A DNA stretch of 53,274 nucleotides from Candidatus Nitrosopelagicus sp. (GTDB lineage: Archaea; Thermoproteota; Nitrososphaeria; Nitrososphaerales; Nitrosopumilaceae). The notes beneath the pieces are model-generated. The model searched no databases, was not told where the DNA came from, and saw nothing but the letters and a program-made list of their open reading frames with translations. This document shows, piece after piece, positions 29,647 through 39,030 of the stretch. The stretch is taken from positions 1 through 53,274 of the forward strand of contig JAOMCX010000009.1 of the NCBI GenBank assembly GCA_028345195.1, written 5' to 3'. The number at the start of each line of letters is the position of its first letter. Position 1 is the first letter of the stretch. A program made the translations under genes and the position numbers.

Positions 29647-29871
29647 GTGAAATGTACATTCATGCAAGAAGATTCTGCTAATGACTTGAAGGTTTTACAA
29701 GAATGGTTTGAGACTAATCGTATTCGAGAGACAGGGATAGTTGAGAATGTACAAAAACAGCCAGCCTCGCCTGAGAGAGACGAGATGTTGGAAATTTGTA
29801 AGGGCAATATAGAAGAATTTTCTATGATGATTCAGTTAGTTGCATCAATAATTGAAAGAGAAAAAGAGTAG
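29647..29871 (+). CDS. conserved hypothetical protein (74 aa)
   Basis: A 74-aa helical protein with a GTG start at 29647 (MKCTFMQEDSAND); an ATG at 29662 is possible. It consists of two acidic amphipathic helices. No domain recognised. It lies just outside the left edge of the accessory island and converges with the receiver-domain gene. Confidence 0.5.
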   Translation: MKCTFMQEDSANDLKVLQEWFETNRIRETGIVENVQKQPASPERDEMLEICKGNIEEFSMMIQLVASIIEREKE

Positions 29872-29895
29872 ATTCTGGTAGAGCAATAGTTTAGA

Positions 29896-30516
29896 TTAAT
29901 TCAACTTGAAAAATCTTACAATAATTTTTTCATAGGCGTCCCATTCTACATCATCTATACTTCTGTCTTCCAAAAAATTAATAATTTTTTCTGCCGTCGT
30001 TTTTCCTTTTAGCAACTGACCTAAACCTAACGTTGCCAACTCTGGCATGTCGCTAAGATCAACTTCATCTTGAAAACGTCCCTCGTTTCTAAGCCTTTGT
30101 TTCATGTATTGTAATGAAACTAAATGGCCAGGTTCATTTGCCGCCTTTATTGCAGCTCTGACAAGTTTCCCCAACCAAGATTCACTACGTGCAATGTAAT
30201 CAAAATACAACTCATTTTGTTGTTTTGCAATATTCTCTACACTAACAACTGAAGAATACACTATTACCGGAACACGGAAAATTCTATTCCTCTTTCTGAT
30301 TCTCTCCACTATTTTATATCCTGGATCAGGTGAATCACGAATGCTTACATCAGTAACTATTACTCTAAATCTATCCGGTTCGATTTTTTCATTAAATTCT
30401 TTTTCATTAGAAACCCATGTAACCTTAAAATCTCCGTCATCTTCTAGTGCATCAATTACCAAGTCTGCATTGTCTTCATCGTCGTCAAAGAGAAGAAGTT
30501 CTGGTTTTTCACTCAT
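29896..30516 (-). CDS. receiver-domain (REC) response regulator-like protein
   Basis: A 206-aa protein. Residues 5-115 form a REC domain: acidic pocket FDDDEDN (D11-D13), phospho-acceptor D56 in IVTDVSI, and Ser in VIVYSS (88-89). The usual Lys is replaced near 109-110 (IARSES), which may alter phosphorylation kinetics. The C-terminal ~90 residues are helical with no DNA-binding motif recognised. It is the last gene of the island operon, overlapping the histidine kinase fusion by 8 nt, so it is the obvious phosphotransfer partner. Confidence 0.75.
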   Translation of the reverse strand: MSEKPELLLFDDDEDNADLVIDALEDDGDFKVTWVSNEKEFNEKIEPDRFRVIVTDVSIRDSPDPGYKIVERIRKRNRIFRVPVIVYSSVVSVENIAKQQNELYFDYIARSESWLGKLVRAAIKAANEPGHLVSLQYMKQRLRNEGRFQDEVDLSDMPELATLGLGQLLKGKTTAEKIINFLEDRSIDDVEWDAYEKIIVRFFKLN

Positions 30517-32755
30517 CTTTCAACAAATCCTTATTGAGATTCTCCAAAGGAATTCTTATCAAAAACATAGTCTCGCCTTTTCCAGGATTTGTAACTTCTT
30601 CTATACTATTTTCAATCTTAGCCTCTCCGCCATAATCTTCTTTGACGATTTCTCTGATGAGAGTTGCACCCATTCCGGTTCCTGACTTTTCTGCACCCTT
30701 GTATGTTGTCCAGAGTGGATCAAATATACGCTCAAAGTTATGCTCGTTTATTCCATGTCCGTTGTCGTAGAATCGAATTGTAAGATGGCTTGATGATGCT
30801 TCAAACATAATTTTGATTATCTTTTGTGCGCGTGGAACTTCTGTCAAAGCCCTGAACGAATTAGAAAACAGGTTTATTATTACTGATTCAAATGATGCTT
30901 GGTTCATCCATATGTTTTTCTCACAGCCAGGTTCAATGACATGTTCAAACTTTATTCCATGTTTACTCATCAAATCTCCAAATCCGTATTCAATTTTTTT
31001 GATAGTTTCTTCAATGTCCATTTCTTCGCGCTTCTTTGACGATCCCTTTGCACCTTTGAACAGTGCTGCGAATTCCCTGATATACGAGTTCAGCGAGCGG
31101 ACAATCTCAATATCTTTAGATGATTTTGTAAGATAGTCAAGCTTCTTCAAATCCTCATACTCGTCCCATTTTTCTATTAATTTGTTAATCCTCGCATCAA
31201 CCCTTGACATAGGTGTTGTAAACTCGTGGTGGAATGTTAATGCAGAAATTCCAAGTGATGACAGATTTCTATACATTTCCAAGTTTGATGCGAGTTCCTC
31301 AACTTCCTCCTCCTGCTGCTCATCCTGGAGTTTTGTATTGTGCTCAATTTCTTTTAGCTTTTTTGCTATTCCTTTCTTTTGTTCCATGTATGCGGGACTT
31401 GGGTCCTTGACATCTAATTTTTCAATAAAGTCCATGACCTGTTTTACATCAGATCTTACTGCTGCGCCAGCATTTACCTTCTTAGTTTCTTCTTTTTTCT
31501 TTTCCTTTTTTGCCTCTATGTAATTTTCAAGTTGCTCAATCACGCCCAAAACAAAGTTGTTTTTCAAAATGTAAAAGTCAAGATTTTCCTCCACTCTTTC
31601 CCTAGTGGTGGTCTCTCTGATTCCTGGATTCCCATCTTTGGAAATTGTTACGAATCCAATTGTCTGTTCATTTCGTATATGACTTCCCCTACGTCCCTCG
31701 TATCTTGGGCCAAGTCCTACCCAGTCGTTTCCTTTGCTTCCATACGGCATGACTCTGACATTGTCATTGTAGATCTTTATTCCTGCATTGTTTTTTAACT
31801 GATCATGTAGGGTTTTACTATCTCTAACTTTGGTAGGTGCCCATTCAGAAGATTTTTCCTTGTAATGGAATAATCTAATCTCCGCATCTCCAATCTCGTG
31901 TGGATTTCCAAGTGCAATTTTTCCTCTTCCTTGAATTTTTTGATTGATTGGATCGGCTTGCTTTCTTGTATCATCTTCAGGTTCTTTTGAATAAATTGTG
32001 TACGTGATAAGAGAGCCTCGTAGTCTTGCTCGAATCTCCCAAGGTGCATATTTTTCTACTGTACTTTCTATATCTGCATTTGGCGCCTCGAATCCATGAG
32101 ATTCAATTTCTATATTGAATGCGTGTTCGTCTCTCTTTGAGATAAACTTTGGTGGTAGAAGATTTCCTAATTTACTATGTACTTCTTCTATCTCTTCTTT
32201 TTTCCATTTGTGCTTAAGATCTGTAATTTCCAGGACGATTCCGTGTTTCTTGTCCTCTCTTTTTGAAAATCCAAGTTCATTTGGAATATCTGTAAGATTT
32301 TCTCCTGTTTGGTAATCGTTCCAGTTAATGTTCAAAGTTAGATTATCATCTGGACGGTCACTCTGTCTTCCTTTCCACATCATAGGCGATGACTTTAGAG
32401 TAATTTTGTTTCCAAGCTTCTGGCACGCAAAGTGCCCCATGCCCTTTGCTCCTGAAACACGTCTCTTGAAAAATCTAGAGATAGTTTCCTCCTCCTTGCT
32501 CTTTGTTCCTATTCTCATCCACTTGTCTCTTATGTCTTCAAATGTCATTCCAAATCCGTCATCTTCTATTACAATCTTTTTGACATCAAGAAAATTCTCT
32601 AATGACACATCTGCGTAAAAGTGAACCTTGCAGTTTAATGCGTCTGCATCATGAGAGTTTTTCACTAACTCGATAAGTGCTTGAACTGGTGAAGAAACGG
32701 ATTGTTCACCAATGTTCTTCAGATGTTTTGCATCTACTGTATGTTTAATCTTCAT
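30509..32755 (-). CDS. MORC-type GHKL ATPase fused to a histidine kinase (paraMORC-like)
   Basis: A 748-aa protein with two ATPases. The N-terminal MORC/MutL-type GHKL domain has ELVKNSHDAD (29-38), DDGFGM (65-70) and GAKGMGHFA (102-110), followed by an S5-like domain with VRVMPYG and NDWVGLG (333-350). A coiled coil (~405-495) leads to a dimerisation helix with HHEFTTP, placing the phospho-accepting His at H510, then a histidine-kinase ATPase: N628/N632, DNGHG (664-668), GTGMG (692-696). All catalytic motifs look intact. The layout recalls the paraMORC group linked to restriction-modification loci. No membrane segment, so it senses an internal signal. Confidence 0.8.
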   Translation of the reverse strand: MKIKHTVDAKHLKNIGEQSVSSPVQALIELVKNSHDADALNCKVHFYADVSLENFLDVKKIVIEDDGFGMTFEDIRDKWMRIGTKSKEEETISRFFKRRVSGAKGMGHFACQKLGNKITLKSSPMMWKGRQSDRPDDNLTLNINWNDYQTGENLTDIPNELGFSKREDKKHGIVLEITDLKHKWKKEEIEEVHSKLGNLLPPKFISKRDEHAFNIEIESHGFEAPNADIESTVEKYAPWEIRARLRGSLITYTIYSKEPEDDTRKQADPINQKIQGRGKIALGNPHEIGDAEIRLFHYKEKSSEWAPTKVRDSKTLHDQLKNNAGIKIYNDNVRVMPYGSKGNDWVGLGPRYEGRRGSHIRNEQTIGFVTISKDGNPGIRETTTRERVEENLDFYILKNNFVLGVIEQLENYIEAKKEKKKEETKKVNAGAAVRSDVKQVMDFIEKLDVKDPSPAYMEQKKGIAKKLKEIEHNTKLQDEQQEEEVEELASNLEMYRNLSSLGISALTFHHEFTTPMSRVDARINKLIEKWDEYEDLKKLDYLTKSSKDIEIVRSLNSYIREFAALFKGAKGSSKKREEMDIEETIKKIEYGFGDLMSKHGIKFEHVIEPGCEKNIWMNQASFESVIINLFSNSFRALTEVPRAQKIIKIMFEASSSHLTIRFYDNGHGINEHNFERIFDPLWTTYKGAEKSGTGMGATLIREIVKEDYGGEAKIENSIEEVTNPGKGETMFLIRIPLENLNKDLLKDE

Positions 32756-33362
32756 TCAAACTTCTCCTAGAATCTAGTTTTTGGCCACCAATTATTTCCA
32801 GTCTAATCAATTCCCTTCTAAGCATAAACTGATACTTTACTATTTCTCTAATTGCATAGTATGCAATTGTCGCAAACTGCGGCTTTACAATTAACACCAT
32901 TCTTCTTTCTTTAGTATATGTGGTCCATATCGTATCATTGAGCGCCTCTCTTGGAAATGCAGTTGTAACTAGCATTCCCCATTCCGACTTGTCTTGAGTT
33001 ATGTTCTTGTCAAGTTGTTCCAAAAACTCACTTGACCAGGTCTTTGTTCTTTTAACGCTGACTGAAATCTTACCAATTTCCATTCCCCCTTCTCTCACAA
33101 ATGCAAGTATGTCAGTTCCATGTCTTGCTGCCTCCTCCTCTGAAAAAGAGTCGTAAGGACAGCCTGCCTTGAGATGTGACAAAGTTACAACCTCCTGTGC
33201 AAATCCTACATCCGTTCCAAACAGTCTATTTCTGACTTCTTCTAGGAACCTTTCTATTTCCTTTAGTCGCTTGCCTGTATCTTCTTGCATAGACGAGAAC
33301 CTTTCCATTATTTCATATGTGGAAAATTGCTTTTCTTCTTGTTTTTGATTTGTTTTATTCAT
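32745..33362 (-). CDS. DUF2130-like PD-(D/E)XK-fold protein with altered active site
   Basis: About 205 aa from ATG 33362 (MNKTNQKQ; an ATG at 33377 is also in frame). A coiled coil (~15-45) precedes a nuclease-like core: HGTDILAFVREGGMEIGKIS, then KRTKTWSSEFLEQL, which aligns by eye with the DUF2130 pattern GxDI...ExKxTKxWS. The expected Glu of ExK is Ser here (S-V-K), while the Asp and Lys remain. It could be a binding-only domain or a nuclease with unusual metal ligation. It overlaps both neighbours (8 and 11 nt). Confidence 0.6.
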   Translation of the reverse strand: MNKTNQKQEEKQFSTYEIMERFSSMQEDTGKRLKEIERFLEEVRNRLFGTDVGFAQEVVTLSHLKAGCPYDSFSEEEAARHGTDILAFVREGGMEIGKISVSVKRTKTWSSEFLEQLDKNITQDKSEWGMLVTTAFPREALNDTIWTTYTKERRMVLIVKPQFATIAYYAIREIVKYQFMLRRELIRLEIIGGQKLDSRRSLNED

Positions 33363-34095
33363 TTTTTGTACCTGCATATTTTTTCATTTTTTCATTTATA
33401 ATATTGGAAAACTGACCAGTTTCACAGCTCAGTTTATTTTTCTCTGCATGCTCGTAGAACTCCCTGATGCATCTTGTCAGTTCGTTGACGTAGTTGATTG
33501 GTTCTTGTACACTTACTTGGGTCTCACCGTTTTCGCAGGAGACAATTGTAACAATCTGCTTAATCATTTCAGATGTCGTCTCTCTCCACATAAGCGAGTA
33601 TGCTGTCTCCTGGATGTAGTGGTTTAGTAAGATGTCCGGAGTCTTGCTTCTTGTTGCCGATTTGAAGTCAATTACAGAAAGAACTCCATCAAATGTTCCT
33701 ATGCAGTCGACCTGTCCTGCCATGCCAAATTTGTGACTGAACATCGGGGTCTCCATAACGCGTATGTCGTCTATTCTGTCTATCTCGCTCTTTACAAGAT
33801 TGAACAGACCCATTGCAAGAATTTTGTTCCGATGCTTTGAGATATCCATGTTGCTCAGATAGTCTGTGCATATCTCGTGAAATGCGGTTCCTCTTATTGC
33901 TCCCATCCTTGCCGCATAGCTTGCAACATTCTTTCCTACCCTCTCCTTCCAGCTCTCAAGCTTCTCATTACTCTGAATGGAAAGTATTGACGTGATTGAC
34001 GGATACATATTTCCATCTATCTGATAAAATCTAAATCCTGCCACCTGGCGCCTGTCAAGCTTTCTCAAACTGGCTGCGGGCATATGGCTAAACAT
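33355..34095 (-). CDS. PD-(D/E)XK exonuclease, MGME1/phage-exonuclease type
   Basis: A 246-aa nuclease. YPSITSILS and ESWKERVGKN (31-55) are the entry motif of the MGME1/phage exonuclease group. Active-site residues follow in order: H73 in RGTAFHE, E115, D130 in AGQVDCIG, D143-F-K145 (the DxK motif) and Q162 in YIQETAYS. All catalytic positions look present. This family digests single-stranded or frayed DNA ends. A copy of the island promoter element lies inside its 3' end. It overlaps the zinc protein upstream by 8 nt. Confidence 0.75.
   Translation of the reverse strand: MFSHMPAASLRKLDRRQVAGFRFYQIDGNMYPSITSILSIQSNEKLESWKERVGKNVASYAARMGAIRGTAFHEICTDYLSNMDISKHRNKILAMGLFNLVKSEIDRIDDIRVMETPMFSHKFGMAGQVDCIGTFDGVLSVIDFKSATRSKTPDILLNHYIQETAYSLMWRETTSEMIKQIVTIVSCENGETQVSVQEPINYVNELTRCIREFYEHAEKNKLSCETGQFSNIINEKMKKYAGTKNE
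33396..33435 (-). promoter_or_regulatory. island regulatory element, copy A (TATA plus operator)
   Basis: AAACTG-AC-CAGTTT followed by CACAGCTCAGTTT (33409-33435), one of three near-identical 27-bp copies. On the minus strand it is followed by the TATA-like AATATTATAA (33396-33405), about 38 nt before the ATG of the DUF2130-like gene. It lies inside the coding end of the exonuclease gene, so it would drive the downstream signalling genes separately. Confidence 0.65.
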
Positions 34096-34528
34096 CTCCG
34101 TCCCCCCTTACCACGCCTGAAATTCTTGCTGTAGTGCACCAAGACGACAGCCTCTCCCTGTCGCCCTCGCTCATCCTTTCAAAGAGCGCGTCCATTGCTG
34201 CCCTCGCTCGCATATCCTCCCCTGTGTTAATTTCTAAAAATGCGTTCTTTCTGTCTCCATTGGACGAAATGTTTGGCGTATGCTTTGAGAGTACCTCTTT
34301 TACGCTCTTTCTTTTTCTTCTAGAGTTTGATTTTTTCTTTTCCTCGACCTTTTCATTAACGTCTTCAGTAGAAAGGCTGATCGACATTTCTGGATGACAT
34401 GTCTCCATTTCCATCCAACAGCCTATACAGACATATTCAATTTCGCGAATTTCCCTGTTCATTTCAATGTTGTCTGTCTCCTCATTACAATAGATGCATT
34501 TTCCCAGTTTGATCTCTTTTTTCTTCAT
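34088..34528 (-). CDS. zinc-binding accessory protein of the island
   Basis: A 146-aa protein. The N-terminal zinc ribbon has C11/C14 (KCIYCNEE) and C34/C37 (VCIGCWME). A basic linker follows (KKKSNSRRKRKSVKEV), then a helical end. No named family. Its ATG overlaps the PIN gene stop by one base (TAATG) and its 3' end overlaps the exonuclease by 8 nt, suggesting a fixed stoichiometry with these nucleases. Confidence 0.6.
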   Translation of the reverse strand: MKKKEIKLGKCIYCNEETDNIEMNREIREIEYVCIGCWMEMETCHPEMSISLSTEDVNEKVEEKKKSNSRRKRKSVKEVLSKHTPNISSNGDRKNAFLEINTGEDMRARAAMDALFERMSEGDRERLSSWCTTARISGVVRGDGDV

Positions 34529-35103
34529 TATTGTGCTCCCGTCCAGTAATCCCAGAGTGCCCTTTGTGGAACCAAACTGTAGTATCTTCCACGGTTTCTA
34601 ATTTTACCGCCTAAGTTCCTCTTCTTTCTAATTTTACCGCCTGGAATCTGCTTCTCCACATACCTGTTCATTTCTTCATTTACGCAGACATACTTGGAAC
34701 CGATCTTTTTGCAACATGCCTTGAGATCGTTATCTGATGTAACGAGTATCGATTTGGTAGTGATACAGTGCGCTAGGATAAAGTCGTCACCTCTGTGAAG
34801 CTCACGTAACATTTTGCGCAAAATTCTGGCATATGATATTGTCTGTTCCGAAATCTCCTCACAGGCAATCTTAGTTCCAAGAATTACCTCGACAGATGAT
34901 ATAACTGCCTGGAAATCCATTCCCTTTCTTTCAACCTCTTTTCTTGTCTGGGATGTTACAATTACCAGATCCTCTTTGAAGTCTATTTTTTCTTTAATGA
35001 CAGCGCCTGCACAAGGATGTGAAAACACGTTCAACAAGTCGCACGTATCGAATACATATCTTGTGCAAAGTATGCCGTCTTTTTGGTTTATTTTTTGTTC
35101 CAT
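34528..35103 (-). CDS. PIN-domain nuclease of the island
   Basis: 191 aa from ATG 35103. PIN acidic residues fall in order: D19 in YVFDTCDLL, E56 in TRKEVERKG, D106/D107 in HRGDDFILAHC and D124/D126 in LVTSDNDLK, fitting a metal-dependent RNase or ssDNase. The frame is open to 35181, where an ATG overlaps the preceding stop by 4 nt, but copy B of the regulatory element lies between the two starts with its TATA about 27 nt before 35103, so the shorter leaderless start is preferred. The C-terminal tail has an in-frame duplication. Confidence 0.7.
   Translation of the reverse strand: MEQKINQKDGILCTRYVFDTCDLLNVFSHPCAGAVIKEKIDFKEDLVIVTSQTRKEVERKGMDFQAVISSVEVILGTKIACEEISEQTISYARILRKMLRELHRGDDFILAHCITTKSILVTSDNDLKACCKKIGSKYVCVNEEMNRYVEKQIPGGKIRKKRNLGGKIRNRGRYYSLVPQRALWDYWTGAQ
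34595..34642. repeat. tandem 30-bp repeat inside the PIN gene
   Basis: TTTCTAATTTTACCGCCT occurs at 34595-34612 and again, identical, at 34625-34642. The 30-bp spacing duplicates ten codons and gives two GGKIR(K/N) units in the basic tail of the PIN protein. The perfect match suggests a recent slippage or duplication. Confidence 0.7.
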
Positions 35104-35125
35104 GATCTTTATAGGCTGATTTTTG

Positions 35126-35166
35126 TATATAATATCTAGAAACTGACCAGTTTTACAGCTCAGTTT
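35126..35166 (-). promoter_or_regulatory. island regulatory element, copy B (TATA plus operator)
   Basis: The 27-bp element at 35140-35166 (AAACTG-AC-CAGTTT followed by TACAGCTCAGTTT) is next to a minus-strand TATA box (ATTATATA, 35126-35133), which is about 27 nt upstream of the PIN start at 35103. That is ideal spacing for a leaderless transcript. It differs from copy A at a single base within the 27 bp. Confidence 0.7.
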
Positions 35167-35177
35167 TTGCTTTGAAG

Positions 35178-35447
35178 TCATCGCATTGCCTCCCGCTCAT
35201 CTTTTCTCTTTTGAAACTCTTCGTCATCTTTTAATTTACTAAGTGCCGTTCCTGGGGTGTCACAGTTCTTTCCGCTTGGTTCCAGCACCAAGTTAACTAT
35301 CCTTTCCCTTTTCTCTTCTTCCATGTGATATGCGTGTTTTACATACGACGTGCTGTCACTCCAGTTGATCAGTGTACCTGGGTAAACAATTTTCTTGCAG
35401 ACACGACATGTGCCTCTGTATCGTGCGTAAATTCTATGCCACGTCAT
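35178..35447 (-). CDS. small zinc-finger-like protein (89 aa)
   Basis: An 89-aa protein. The N-terminal YRGTCRVCKKIVYPGTLINW, then KHAYHM, has the layout of a small treble-clef finger (C14/C17 with H38/H41). A charged helical tail follows. Related fingers occur in phage and restriction proteins. It overlaps the upstream small gene by 4 nt. Confidence 0.6.
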   Translation of the reverse strand: MTWHRIYARYRGTCRVCKKIVYPGTLINWSDSTSYVKHAYHMEEEKRERIVNLVLEPSGKNCDTPGTALSKLKDDEEFQKRKDEREAMR

Positions 35448-35650
35448 GCTTTTTCTCCCGACAGCCTGTATGAAGGAGTTCTTCCCTCATTTCTCTCTAG
35501 GCTTGTCAGAAACCATAGCAGATAGCGGTCTAACAAAATATTGCTAATTCCTGCTTTTACTGTTGGACCTAGGGTTGGTATTTTACTGATACCGATCATC
35601 ATTCCCTCAATCTTCCAATCTTCTTTTTTGTTTGAATTTATTTTATTCAT
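35444..35650 (-). CDS. first small gene of the island operon (68 aa)
   Basis: 68 aa from ATG 35650 (MNKINSNKKEDW); an ATG at 35674 is in frame but falls on the TATA box. TATA box to start is 26 nt, a leaderless layout. The protein has a Gly/Ile-rich middle and a Leu/Trp-rich helix (LLDRYLLWFLTSLERNEG). No family recognised. It overlaps the next gene by 4 nt. Confidence 0.55.
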   Translation of the reverse strand: MNKINSNKKEDWKIEGMMIGISKIPTLGPTVKAGISNILLDRYLLWFLTSLERNEGRTPSYRLSGEKA

Positions 35651-35672
35651 ACTTTTTTTTACGTGCTGTTGC

Positions 35673-35717
35673 ATATAATGTCCGAAAACTGACCAGTTTT
35701 ACAGGTCACTTTATATC
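35673..35717. promoter_or_regulatory. island regulatory element, copy C (shared divergent promoter)
   Basis: The 16-bp perfect palindrome AAAACTG-AC-CAGTTTT (35685-35700) begins the 27-bp element (35686-35712). It is flanked by two opposite TATA boxes: ATATAAT (35673-35679, serving the minus-strand gene at 35650) and TTTATATC (35710-35717, serving the plus-strand gene at 35739). Each TATA is about 26 nt from its start codon, so one bound protein could control both directions. Its second half (TACAGGTCACTTT) differs from copies A and B at two or three bases. Confidence 0.75.
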
Positions 35718-35738
35718 GTATGTGGTATTACACTTATT

Positions 35739-36536
35739 GTGAAAACACGTACGCGTTCTAAAAAGAAAATTAAGAAAAAGGTATCGTATGATGAAAGGCA
35801 TGTCAAGTGGGTGAGAAAAATAGTAGAAGAGAATAATCCGACTGGTATTTCTAGAAACGAATTGACAAGAACTAGGCAAAAAATGAGCAAAATTGCATTG
35901 GATCGTGCAATTGCATCGGGAGAGGATCCTCCTGGAAGAGAGAGAATTGATCAAATTCTCAAAGACTACAACGGCACCTACTTTGAGTATAAAGAAAATT
36001 CTGGCGGTTCTGGAAACAAATCATTGGTCACCCCCTTGGAACTTGACAATACTACTCTGCTTGGAAATTTGGAAAATGTGTCAACTTTGCATGAGATTAA
36101 TGATAATATCAAAAAGCTTACTTTGGGCAGAGGCTATGATAATGACCGAAATTTTAAGACCGCCGAATATGTAAATCTGGTAACGGTTGAGAAGAAAGTA
36201 CACTCCTTTCCAATAACAGCCGTCAAATCGGCGATTCAAAACGACGCGAACTATTCAGAACGCCTAGAGGCACTAGTTTCCACTACGAAAAAACAGCTCA
36301 ATTCAATCAAGAAAATAAAAAAGAATCAAAAGTATAGCACCAAACATTTTGACGAAATATACAAGGAATTTGAAAATGTATTGGAGATGAGCTTCGTAAA
36401 CCAAATTATTTCTAAAATTCTCTCTGACCGTAATTTTTTTGCACTGCTTCAGGAGGAAAATATTGACCTTGACGAATTACAACCTAGAAGAAACAAGATA
36501 AGAAGGCTGATGAGTCAGGCTAGTGAGAAAATATGA
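35739..36536 (+). CDS. island protein of unknown function, candidate regulator
   Basis: A 265-aa protein with a GTG start at 35739. The very basic N-terminus (KTRTRSKKKIKKK) is followed by a helical segment with NPTGISRNELTRTRQKMSKI that could be a winged-helix or helix-turn-helix unit. The second half is charged and helical. No family recognised. It is the only divergent gene on copy C and sits beside the methyltransferase, the usual place of a controller gene in restriction-modification loci, hence the regulator hypothesis. Confidence 0.55.
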   Translation: MKTRTRSKKKIKKKVSYDERHVKWVRKIVEENNPTGISRNELTRTRQKMSKIALDRAIASGEDPPGRERIDQILKDYNGTYFEYKENSGGSGNKSLVTPLELDNTTLLGNLENVSTLHEINDNIKKLTLGRGYDNDRNFKTAEYVNLVTVEKKVHSFPITAVKSAIQNDANYSERLEALVSTTKKQLNSIKKIKKNQKYSTKHFDEIYKEFENVLEMSFVNQIISKILSDRNFFALLQEENIDLDELQPRRNKIRRLMSQASEKI

Positions 36537-36555
36537 AAAAATACACTTTCTTAGA

Positions 36556-37536
36556 TCAAGCATAATCAAGGATAGTTTTTCTGACTTTGTTTTGATGCAT
36601 TGTCTTTACAATTGACTTTGCAATTTCCTTTACCACCGGAACCACTACTGCGTTTCCAAACTGTCTGTATGCTTGGTTGTCTGATACCTCTATCTTGAAT
36701 GATTTCGGAAATCCCATAAGGCTTGCACATTCCCTAGGAGTCAGCTTTCTTGGATTCTTTCTTTTCTGCGCTATGAGAATCTCGGCACCGTCCTTGTAGT
36801 ATCTTGCACTGAGCGTCTTTGAAATCTCTTTTGTATTGGTGACAAGATTAAATCCAAAGCCGTTTCCCTTTGCCTTGTGCTTTTCTTTGTGTCTTTGTAG
36901 TGAATTCCATGTTCCATCTTTCAGTGTATACTTTTCGTCAACCTTCTTCTGAAGTATGTTGGCAAGTGTGGGTCTCTTGTCTATCATCTTTGGAAACTTG
37001 AAATCCATCGGCTTTTTGAATCCCACAATGAAAATTCTTTCCCTGTGTTGTGGTACGACGCTGCTTGCATCTACAATCTTTACGTGAACGTCATATCCCA
37101 AATCTTCCTGAAGCTTTTTCATTATCACCTTGAACGTTTTTCCCTTGTCATGACTTTTCAAGTTCTTTACATTCTCAAGTAGAAATGCCTTTGGTTTTTT
37201 GTCCCTGATTATTCTGACAATATCAAAAAACAATGTTCCCTGTGTCTCATCCTCAAACCCGTGCTTACGTCCGAGAGAATTTTTTGAGCTAACTCCTGCA
37301 ATGGAAAATGGCTGACACGGAAATCCTCCCACAAGAATGTCGTGAGTTGGAATGTCCTTTGTCTCTATCTTTGTAATGTCGCCGTCAGGAACTTCGCCAA
37401 AGTTTGCCTCGTACGTTTGCTGTGAAAATTTGTTCCATTCAGAAGAGAAGACGCATTTTCCTCCTGCCTTTTCAAATGCAATTCTCATGCCTCCTATTCC
37501 TGCAAAAAGATCGATAAACCTGAATCCTTTTTCCAT
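36556..37536 (-). CDS. DNA (cytosine-5) methyltransferase, type II
   Basis: A 326-aa C5 methyltransferase. Motif I is [19 protein letters not shown], motif [13 protein letters not shown] holds the catalytic C74, motif VI is ENVKNL, motif [15 protein letters not shown], and motif [12 protein letters not shown]. All are intact. It methylates the host's copies of the restriction site; the target cannot be read from sequence. It lies downstream of the endonuclease gene with a ~60-bp gap and converges with the unknown 265-aa gene. Confidence 0.93.
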
Positions 37537-37596
37537 CTTTCTTTTGTTGGTTTGTTTGATTATTAATTTTGGTTGTTCTAAAATTTAGATCAGTTG

Positions 37597-38361
37597 TCAA
37601 GGATGTCTGCTGATAATCAGTGAATCCCAGAAAGAATTTTGGGCCCGCCATTGACAATAATTCCTTGAATTTCCTTCATACATTCCACTATCAAAAAAGA
37701 TCTCTCCAGTTTTAACATGTTTCATAAAAGTCTCAAAATTCATGGGCCCGCCAAACACTATTTCTTCATATCCGCGTTGGCCAATTTTGCATTTGAACCA
37801 CCCACTCTGATTAAATTTCCTTTCTAGCTTTTCTCTTAACGAGTTTTTGCCCTCTGCATTCCATTTTGCAATTATGATCTCACTTTGCCTTAGTTTTTCC
37901 GGAACTTTCTCTGCTTTTTCTTCTCTTGTATCATCTTGGTATGAGTATACAAATGATATGTTGTTACTTTCATCAATTACAGTCTTGACTCCGAACGAAT
38001 TGATTCCGTTTATTTTTGGTACTGGTTCCCCTGACCAAGAAAGTCTTCCACCCTTATGCTTGTTGGGCTTTCCAAATATTCTGAGAAAGTCATCTCTTGT
38101 CATATCGTATTGACTATCTCTAAAGATCCAATAATTTGGACTCCAGTCACCGAATGTTGTTTTCATCATTGTATCGTTTTTCATTTCATATCCGAATAGG
38201 TCCGCTGTGTTGCTTGCATTAGGCTCTACGCCCATTTTCTTCTCCAGCCAATGTCCTTCTTTTCCATCATGACGTTCATTGGATCCTGTCGTATCTGGAA
38301 TTTTCCCATAAACATTTTTCATAAAAAGCTCGATGATCCTCTTTTGAATTTCTTCACTCAT
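37597..38361 (-). CDS. type II restriction endonuclease (LlaMI-like)
   Basis: 254 aa from ATG 38361 (MSEEIQKRIIELF); an ATG at 38385 is in frame. The core HDGKEGHWLEKKMGVEPNA, then ADLFGYEMKN, holds a PD-(D/E)XK site (D, then E-M-K) and is followed by KTTFGDWSPNYWIF. These features recall the LlaMI/ScrFI-type enzymes of CCNGG or CCWGG specificity, but the match is from memory and the target is not established. Placement beside a C5 methyltransferase and Vsr supports the role. Confidence 0.72.
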   Translation of the reverse strand: MSEEIQKRIIELFMKNVYGKIPDTTGSNERHDGKEGHWLEKKMGVEPNASNTADLFGYEMKNDTMMKTTFGDWSPNYWIFRDSQYDMTRDDFLRIFGKPNKHKGGRLSWSGEPVPKINGINSFGVKTVIDESNNISFVYSYQDDTREEKAEKVPEKLRQSEIIIAKWNAEGKNSLREKLERKFNQSGWFKCKIGQRGYEEIVFGGPMNFETFMKHVKTGEIFFDSGMYEGNSRNYCQWRAQNSFWDSLIISRHP

Positions 38362-38410
38362 GAACGCATAATACCGCAATAACAATTAACTATGATCTTT
38401 TCTTTTTTAC

Positions 38411-38803
38411 ATGGCAGACATCTTCACTCCGGAAAAGCGCTCGTGGGTCATGTCGCGCATCCGCTCAAAGGACACAAAGATTGAGAAAGCCATGGCATCA
38501 CTTCTAAGAAAAAACAGGATACACTACAGGAAATATCCGAAGCTATTCGGAAACCCAGACTTTATCATTGAAAAAAAAGTTCTGCTCTTCTGCGACGGCG
38601 ACTTTTGGCACGGCTATCGGTATGACAAGAAGAAAAAGCCGCAAAAAAAGTTCTGGCGTGAAAAGATAGAGCGTAACATGAAACGTGACAGGAAGGTCAC
38701 AAGAACTTTGAGGCGAGACGGCTGGTCCGTAATTCGCATATGGGAGCACGACATACAAAAAAATCCCGACAGGTGCGTCAGAAAAATTTTGAATGTACTC
38801 TAG
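38411..38803 (+). CDS. vsr: very short patch repair endonuclease Vsr
   Basis: A 130-aa nicking enzyme for T:G mismatches left by deamination of 5-methylcytosine. MADIFTPEKRSWVMSRIRSK, then GNPDFIIEKKVLLFCDGDFW, contains the catalytic D50 and the D62/H67 region. WSVIRIWEHD is the final family block. Normal length. Divergent from the endonuclease gene across at most 49 bp. The GC-rich codon use differs clearly from chromosomal neighbours, a sign of transfer. Confidence 0.92.
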   Translation: MADIFTPEKRSWVMSRIRSKDTKIEKAMASLLRKNRIHYRKYPKLFGNPDFIIEKKVLLFCDGDFWHGYRYDKKKKPQKKFWREKIERNMKRDRKVTRTLRRDGWSVIRIWEHDIQKNPDRCVRKILNVL

Positions 38804-38985
38804 GAAATAATTTCCGCAAGCTTCTTTCTGTCTTCCTTTGAAAGCGAGAGCATGAAGACTATTCCGTCCGGATTTTTTGCATTTTCTCCCTTTGGATAAA
38901 ATCTAATCTCAACATTTCCTCCGGATTCTTTTGTCTCATAAGGCACTCCACCAATTTTATCTCTCATGAAAAACATGTAATCCAC
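38800..38985 (-). CDS. small hypothetical protein at the island edge (61 aa)
   Basis: A 61-aa protein (MDYMFFMRDKIGG) with a predicted beta hairpin and a C-terminal helix (LSKEDRKKLAEIIS). Its 3' end overlaps vsr by 4 nt in convergent orientation. No family recognised. Confidence 0.5.
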   Translation of the reverse strand: MDYMFFMRDKIGGVPYETKESGGNVEIRFYPKGENAKNPDGIVFMLSLSKEDRKKLAEIIS

Positions 38986-39030
38986 TTGTACAAAAGAAAT
39001 TACATCTCTTACTGCAACGACAAAAATTTA

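Follow-up and report, generated by a model that had tools for sequence, protein, structure and literature searches.

The window, that is, the whole stretch of 53,274 nucleotides that was analysed, comes from an ammonia-oxidising archaeon and encodes a protein with a MORC-like ATPase at one end and the parts of a histidine kinase at the other. This locus raises the question of whether the MORC-like half could be the input of a two-component switch, as the preliminary description of this DNA had suggested, and what such a switch would control. The kinase and its partner have the following layout:

30509..32755, minus strand: paraMORC-type histidine kinase, 748 aa (Pfam, residue check, AF2, Foldseek, conservation)
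Kinase, N-terminal part: GHKL ATPase at residues 24-123, S5-like beta-rich region to about residue 371, coiled coil from residue 392
Kinase, C-terminal part: DHp hairpin (helices 454-528 and 535-567, with H510), CA domain 577-738
31226..31228, minus strand: codon of H510, the phospho-accepting His (residue numbering, conservation)
29896..30516, minus strand: response regulator, 206 aa, with REC at 8-108 and a helical C-terminus of about 90 aa (PF00072, AF2, Foldseek)

Pfam assigns the N-terminus of the kinase to HATPase_c_3 (PF13589, residues 24-123, 3.7e-24) and the C-terminus to HATPase_c (PF02518, residues 620-738, 2.7e-21), both far above the cut-off. The claim that both ATPase sites are intact was confirmed by a residue check, which found N33, D65 and G102-G107 (GAKGMG) in the first site and N628/N632, D664 and G692/694/696 in the second. 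H510 indeed lies within HHEFTTP, a match to the HExxxP kinase motif, which occurs once in the protein against about 0.07 occurrences expected from its composition. The protein thus combines the N-terminal GHKL domain with intact ATP motifs of a paraMORC with the hallmarks of HisKA-type kinases, a His in a DHp hairpin and a CA domain that has its N and G boxes. It had also been described as having no sensor or membrane domain, and Pfam gives neither a transmembrane nor a classical sensor domain match. NCBIfam relates the C-terminal half to AtoS and other sensor kinases (5.9e-20) and the N-terminal half to the restriction enzymes of the BbrUII/HgiDII family (2.9e-18); neither match comes near the cut-off for full membership.

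An AlphaFold model (AF2) of the kinase was built on a 36-sequence alignment (mean pLDDT 81.3). It runs from the GHKL domain through a beta-rich part (137-371) to a long helix that carries H510 (454-528), a turn, a second helix (535-567) and a CA fold. In a Foldseek search the C-terminal part matched HK853 best (2.8e-15), with entries of the HK853-RR468 complex among the matches, and as modelled it is an HK853-like DHp-CA transmitter. The beta-rich part of the model is a candidate for the S5-like segment, and R385 is invariant among relatives. When a profile of the N-terminal part was compared with the PDB, the best matches were Hsp90/HtpG (5.7e-9) and MORC was absent from the best 60; as a single query against the PDB, this half gave chance matches to lysenin only. 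Its GHKL fold is secure, but since the best matches of the profile are Hsp90/HtpG, the label "MORC" is based on Pfam, on context and on the literature. ATP makes GHKL N-domains dimerise, and a DHp bundle is itself a dimer, so that a coupling between the two would be natural.

Relatives of the kinase were collected from bacterial genomes (32 loci), Nitrososphaerota, plasmids (including those of a haloarchaeon and of Campylobacter) and IMG/VR. A single-protein scan of viral contigs found none; a profile search was used instead and yielded the 80 IMG/VR loci. The following counts refer to 134 aligned kinase sequences, the window protein included. H510 is kept in 132 of them; N33, G102, G107, N632, G694 and R385 are present in all 134, D65 in 133, N628 in 132 and D664 in 126. 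Of HExxxP, most relatives keep the His but not the Pro. Because the key residues, H510 among them, are invariant even in an alignment of relatives with 19-26% identity to the window kinase (A5), we rejected the possibility of a chance motif. A pseudogene reading was considered and rejected as well. Within the archaeal family of the host, the kinase was found in 15 of 250 genomes (the window's own counted), and it is absent from the other genomes of the same genus among the matches listed.

The gene of the response regulator overlaps that of the kinase by 8 nt, and its product matches PF00072 with 38.6 bits (cut-off 30.2). The phospho-acceptor D56, the acidic D11/D12 and S88 are present; the usual Lys position appears to hold Arg or Ser, and signalling may therefore be atypical. 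The AF2 model matches receiver domains in Foldseek, with a C-terminus of low model confidence in which no known output domain and no DNA-binding domain was recognised. D56 is the only invariant column in alignments of 27 receivers (A1) and of 70 downstream proteins (A4), although these proteins are very divergent (Pfam sees REC in 13 of the 70) and single columns are thus prone to alignment error. At all 32 bacterial-genome loci a REC gene adjoins the kinase gene. The assignment of the overlapping REC protein as the partner of the kinase thus stands: the conservation of His and Asp over a large family, the gene overlap and the fact that the His is missing only from two relatives that have no REC gene either strongly support a genuine kinase-receiver pair rather than a chance arrangement, and the two very probably form a competent His-Asp pair.

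Both genes lie in a segment that appears to have been exchanged as a unit. Up to position 29864 and from 39022 onwards, the window is 91% identical to the complete genome of a congener, which carries an unrelated 14.4-kb stretch in between; this delimits the island, whose GC content is 38.9% compared with 33.2% outside. Besides the kinase and REC genes, it contains:

29865..39021, unstranded: the whole exchangeable island, 9157 bp (flank identity, GC)
32745..33377, likely start 33362, minus strand: DUF2130 protein, PD-(D/E)XK-like nuclease candidate (PF09903, 1.3e-16)
33355..34095, minus strand: PD-(D/E)XK (Cas4-like) nuclease candidate (PF12705, 1.2e-5, 25.8 bits against a cut-off of 22)
34088..34528, minus strand: 146-aa protein (ORF that overlaps its neighbours)
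34528..35181, likely true start 35103, minus strand: PIN-domain-like protein, weak match (PF01850, E=0.005, below cut-off)
35178..35447, minus strand: small Cys-containing protein of 89 aa (ORF, 4-nt overlap with the PIN gene)
35444..35674, likely start 35650, minus strand: small ORF at the operon head (operator and TATA-like box upstream)
35739..36536, plus strand: divergent 265-aa protein, candidate local regulator (ORF, nothing above the Pfam cut-off)
36556..37536, minus strand: C5 cytosine DNA methyltransferase (PF00145, 8.2e-102)
37597..38385, minus strand: LlaMI/MvaI-BcnI-type restriction endonuclease (PF09562, 4.3e-55)
38411..38803, plus strand: Vsr mismatch endonuclease (PF03852, 1e-20)

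The kinase and the restriction-modification (R-M) genes share one exchanged island, and the site is a defence hot spot with unrelated islands in two congeners. The island of the congener (L168, 3663-18095, reverse strand) holds a C5 methyltransferase-like gene and two unknowns of 1042 and 524 aa. The DUF2130 gene overlaps the start of the kinase gene by 11 nt, and its family is one that we take to be a PD-(D/E)XK-like nuclease. DUF2130 as a conserved partner of the kinase was dropped: one other carrier was found in the 250 family genomes, and it has no kinase.

Three copies of an operator-like element are found in the island:

35686..35708, unstranded: copy 1, contains AAACTGACCAGTTT (6 nt from ATTATA)
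35140..35162, unstranded: copy 2 (genome search)
33409..33431, unstranded: copy 3, upstream of DUF2130-kinase-REC (genome search)

The element is 23 bp long, contains a palindrome and reads TGA(G/C)CTGT(A/G)AAACTGGTCAGTTT in operon sense. It occurs nowhere else in the 1.1-Mb assembly (85.5% complete), and a control gave 0 copies. Each copy is followed by ATTATA after 6 nt and by an ATG after 35-46 nt. Three copies in front of TATA-like boxes point to three co-regulated, probably leaderless units, of which DUF2130-kinase-REC is one, which makes the element a probable private operator that serves three leaderless promoters. Candidates for its binder are the REC protein and the divergent 265-aa protein.

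We propose that the kinase is the sensor of a soluble (cytosolic) two-component switch in a mobile R-M/defence island. Its input module would be the N-terminal GHKL and S5-like (paraMORC) half, whose ATP-driven dimer closure, most likely around DNA, would reach the DHp bundle by way of the coiled coil; the CA domain would then phosphorylate H510, and the phosphoryl group would pass to D56 of REC. Phospho-REC would set the activity of the island nucleases, or their expression from the promoters that share the operator. The intact sites, the conserved His and Asp, the transmitter fold, the genetic linkage, the shared exchanged island and, in relatives, the methyltransferases near the kinase and the effector-type genes behind REC support this switch as a whole, from paraMORC input through H510-D56 relay to island nucleases, and we consider it rather more probable than not. 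Phosphotransfer, DNA as the signal and nucleases as the output are steps that we infer: DNA as the cue for the paraMORC half seems to us an even call, and nuclease control as the output of kinase and REC is a tentative assignment that we rate somewhat below even. Of the original idea that the MORC/S5 half is a sensor feeding REC, the kinase and REC part is thus strongly supported; the paraMORC half may plausibly be the input, as had already been proposed (PMC8011034).

For the bacterial sister branch it has been proposed that the system is a transcriptional regulator (PMC8011034). Applied here, kinase and REC would read a cytosolic cue (e.g. an NTP) and mainly regulate the R-M and nuclease genes at the transcriptional level, with no DNA sensing by the paraMORC half, and the three identical operator-like elements right before TATA-like boxes, which are private to this island, fit such a role. 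However, REC has no recognised DNA-binding domain, several archaeal partners (L053-L055) are bare RECs of 131-135 aa, and the divergent 265-aa protein could be the operator binder instead. Moreover, the operons of relatives also hold effector enzymes, which suggests direct control. We thus regard purely transcriptional regulation as unlikely.

Exceptions to the conservation of the His bear on a second alternative. Homologs that lack the His had been named beforehand as evidence that would speak against the sensor kinase. Two such relatives do exist (L056 and L059, with His replaced by Arg and N628 by His), but in both a helicase-type gene takes the place of REC, and no REC was found within 18 kb. 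Loss of the His together with absence of REC fits a functional link between the two. Both relatives come from one genus, so this is probably a single event, and from their residues an apparent loss of phosphotransfer. Another relative (L062) keeps the His and has no REC that we could find. A Fisher test of kinase damage versus REC absence (p=1e-5) was discounted because the "damaged" set had been picked after the fact, relatives that do have REC can carry D664N as well, and the His-less pair represents one genus. In a separate case (L058:3845-4945), a kinase half with HExxxP has no in-frame N-terminal ATPase, and a P-loop ATPase gene lies beside it on the opposite strand. That His-less relatives paired with helicases survive agrees with a classical paraMORC role, in which the protein would be the part of an R-M complex that uses ATP to loop or clamp DNA, with DHp-CA as a dimeriser, REC as a structural subunit and phosphorylation as a vestige; the R-M context and the published looping model (PMC2292703) agree with it, too. 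Yet His and Asp stay invariant across many phyla even where identity is about 20%, which is unexpected if phosphotransfer is vestigial, and we find this explanation quite improbable.

The neighbourhoods of the relatives reveal a usual gene order of DNA methyltransferase, paraMORC kinase, REC and effector. A methyltransferase lies within 6 kb of the kinase in 114 of the 134 loci and immediately upstream of it in 73 (48 C5, 25 N6). An ordinary two-component system that is a mere passenger without functional tie to R-M is therefore very unlikely, even if defence islands gather unrelated genes and about 3.8 kb separate the methyltransferase of the window from the kinase gene, given also the published R-M enrichment (P<0.0001; PMC8011034).

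A fourth gene frequently follows REC with a small or zero gap (84 loci listed); in the window, this usual downstream effector gene is missing. Pfam analysis of 56 fourth genes gave HNH (10), metallo-beta-lactamase (3), trypsin-like (1), HEPN_AbiV (1) and Peptidase_C25 (1). In the product of the Bacteroidota fourth gene, His-Gly and a distal Cys are invariant (A7 alignment), and its profile gave weak matches in the PDB, nearly all to caspases (E 0.03 and up). We infer from these residues and matches a caspase-like peptidase as candidate effector (L001:12711-13340, its counterparts in about 31 Bacteroidota and related loci, and L074, L130 and L148). Other arrangements are a trypsin-like protease behind REC (L055:10574-11341) and a HEPN_AbiV-type protein that follows a kinase relative whose CA site is altered (L060:6212-6985), both assigned to their loci by sequence inspection, and a subfamily that has an MBL-fold hydrolase gene alongside REC (L072, L075, L090, L091, L103). 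It is conceivable, though we hold it with less than even confidence, that these loci form a large, mobile class of defence systems in which the methyltransferase marks self, a MORC-like clamp in the kinase checks DNA, and the His-Asp relay fires exchangeable effectors, namely HNH nucleases, MBL-fold enzymes, trypsin-like and caspase-like proteases and, here, PD-(D/E)XK nucleases.

With HK853-type (HisKA) kinases, the window kinase shares the DHp-CA fold and the H-E-x-x-x-P box, but it is cytosolic and has a GHKL ATPase as N-terminal input. Detocs, to our knowledge, has neither a paraMORC half nor a methyltransferase. Membership was rejected, because PADLOC does not name Detocs in any match to the kinase or REC. 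Two-component phosphotransfer tied to defence, with an effector behind the receiver, would be common to both, whereas the genes of Detocs (DtcABC) are others; in the best-described case, DtcB buffers phosphate and a PNP is the effector (PMC11728103, PMC11249213). In the Shedu protein VcSduA, which defends against phage, a GHKL (paraMORC3) half is likewise fused to an output domain, but this is a PD-(D/E)XK nuclease instead of a kinase (PMC12137116); as an analogy, it speaks for the proposed switch. Iyer et al. (2008) defined paraMORCs in R-M systems and put forward the looping model (PMC2292703); the window protein shares their N-terminal GHKL domain with intact motifs, their R-M neighbourhood and possibly their S5 region, but has a kinase transmitter at the C-terminus rather than a nuclease, TIR or unknown domain, and REC rather than a helicase as partner. 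The closest description is that of Bellieny-Rabelo et al. (2021), who described proteins encoded next to Response_reg_2 in an R-M context, 174 of 222 of which combine HATPase_c_3, HEF_HK and HATPase_c, suggested HATPase_c_3 as the sensor and put forward NTP sensing (PMC8011034). Like this system (PF19191, PF19192), the window has a soluble protein with N-terminal HATPase_c_3, DHp and C-terminal HATPase_c without a transmembrane match, an adjacent REC gene, and a type II R-M system with C5 methyltransferase, Vsr and MvaI_BcnI neighbours. However, its DHp scores 14.9 bits, under the HEF_HK cut-off of 24.1, its partner is a 206-aa PF00072 REC with no PF19192 match, and it is archaeal, whereas the survey covered bacteria only with a response regulator query of 600 aa.

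The kinase architecture is thus not new in kind, and the idea of the MORC half as sensor is largely in print, since the 2021 study gave both the architecture and the sensor suggestion and the 2008 study defined the paraMORCs of R-M systems. What is new is an archaeal member outside both the HEF_HK and the Response_reg_2 domains. The family is far wider than these domains, which cover neither the window protein nor most relatives (in the wider set, Pfam sees HEF_HK in just 2 of 56 and Response_reg_2 in just 1 of 70; no PADLOC match at 1e-20). Also new are the exchanged island with its private operator in the window and, judging from the gene orders, the methyltransferase-kinase-REC-effector quartet with exchangeable effectors, one of them probably caspase-like; we found no description of this quartet in the open-access literature. 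The system reaches the archaea, and most of the kinase family escapes the models of Pfam and PADLOC. If the switch is real, a MORC-like ATPase would be the signal input of a phosphorelay, and a single module would join R-M, two-component signalling and effector-type immunity. The conserved His/Asp pair provides an assay handle on what paraMORC ATPases sense, a question that has been standing since 2008.
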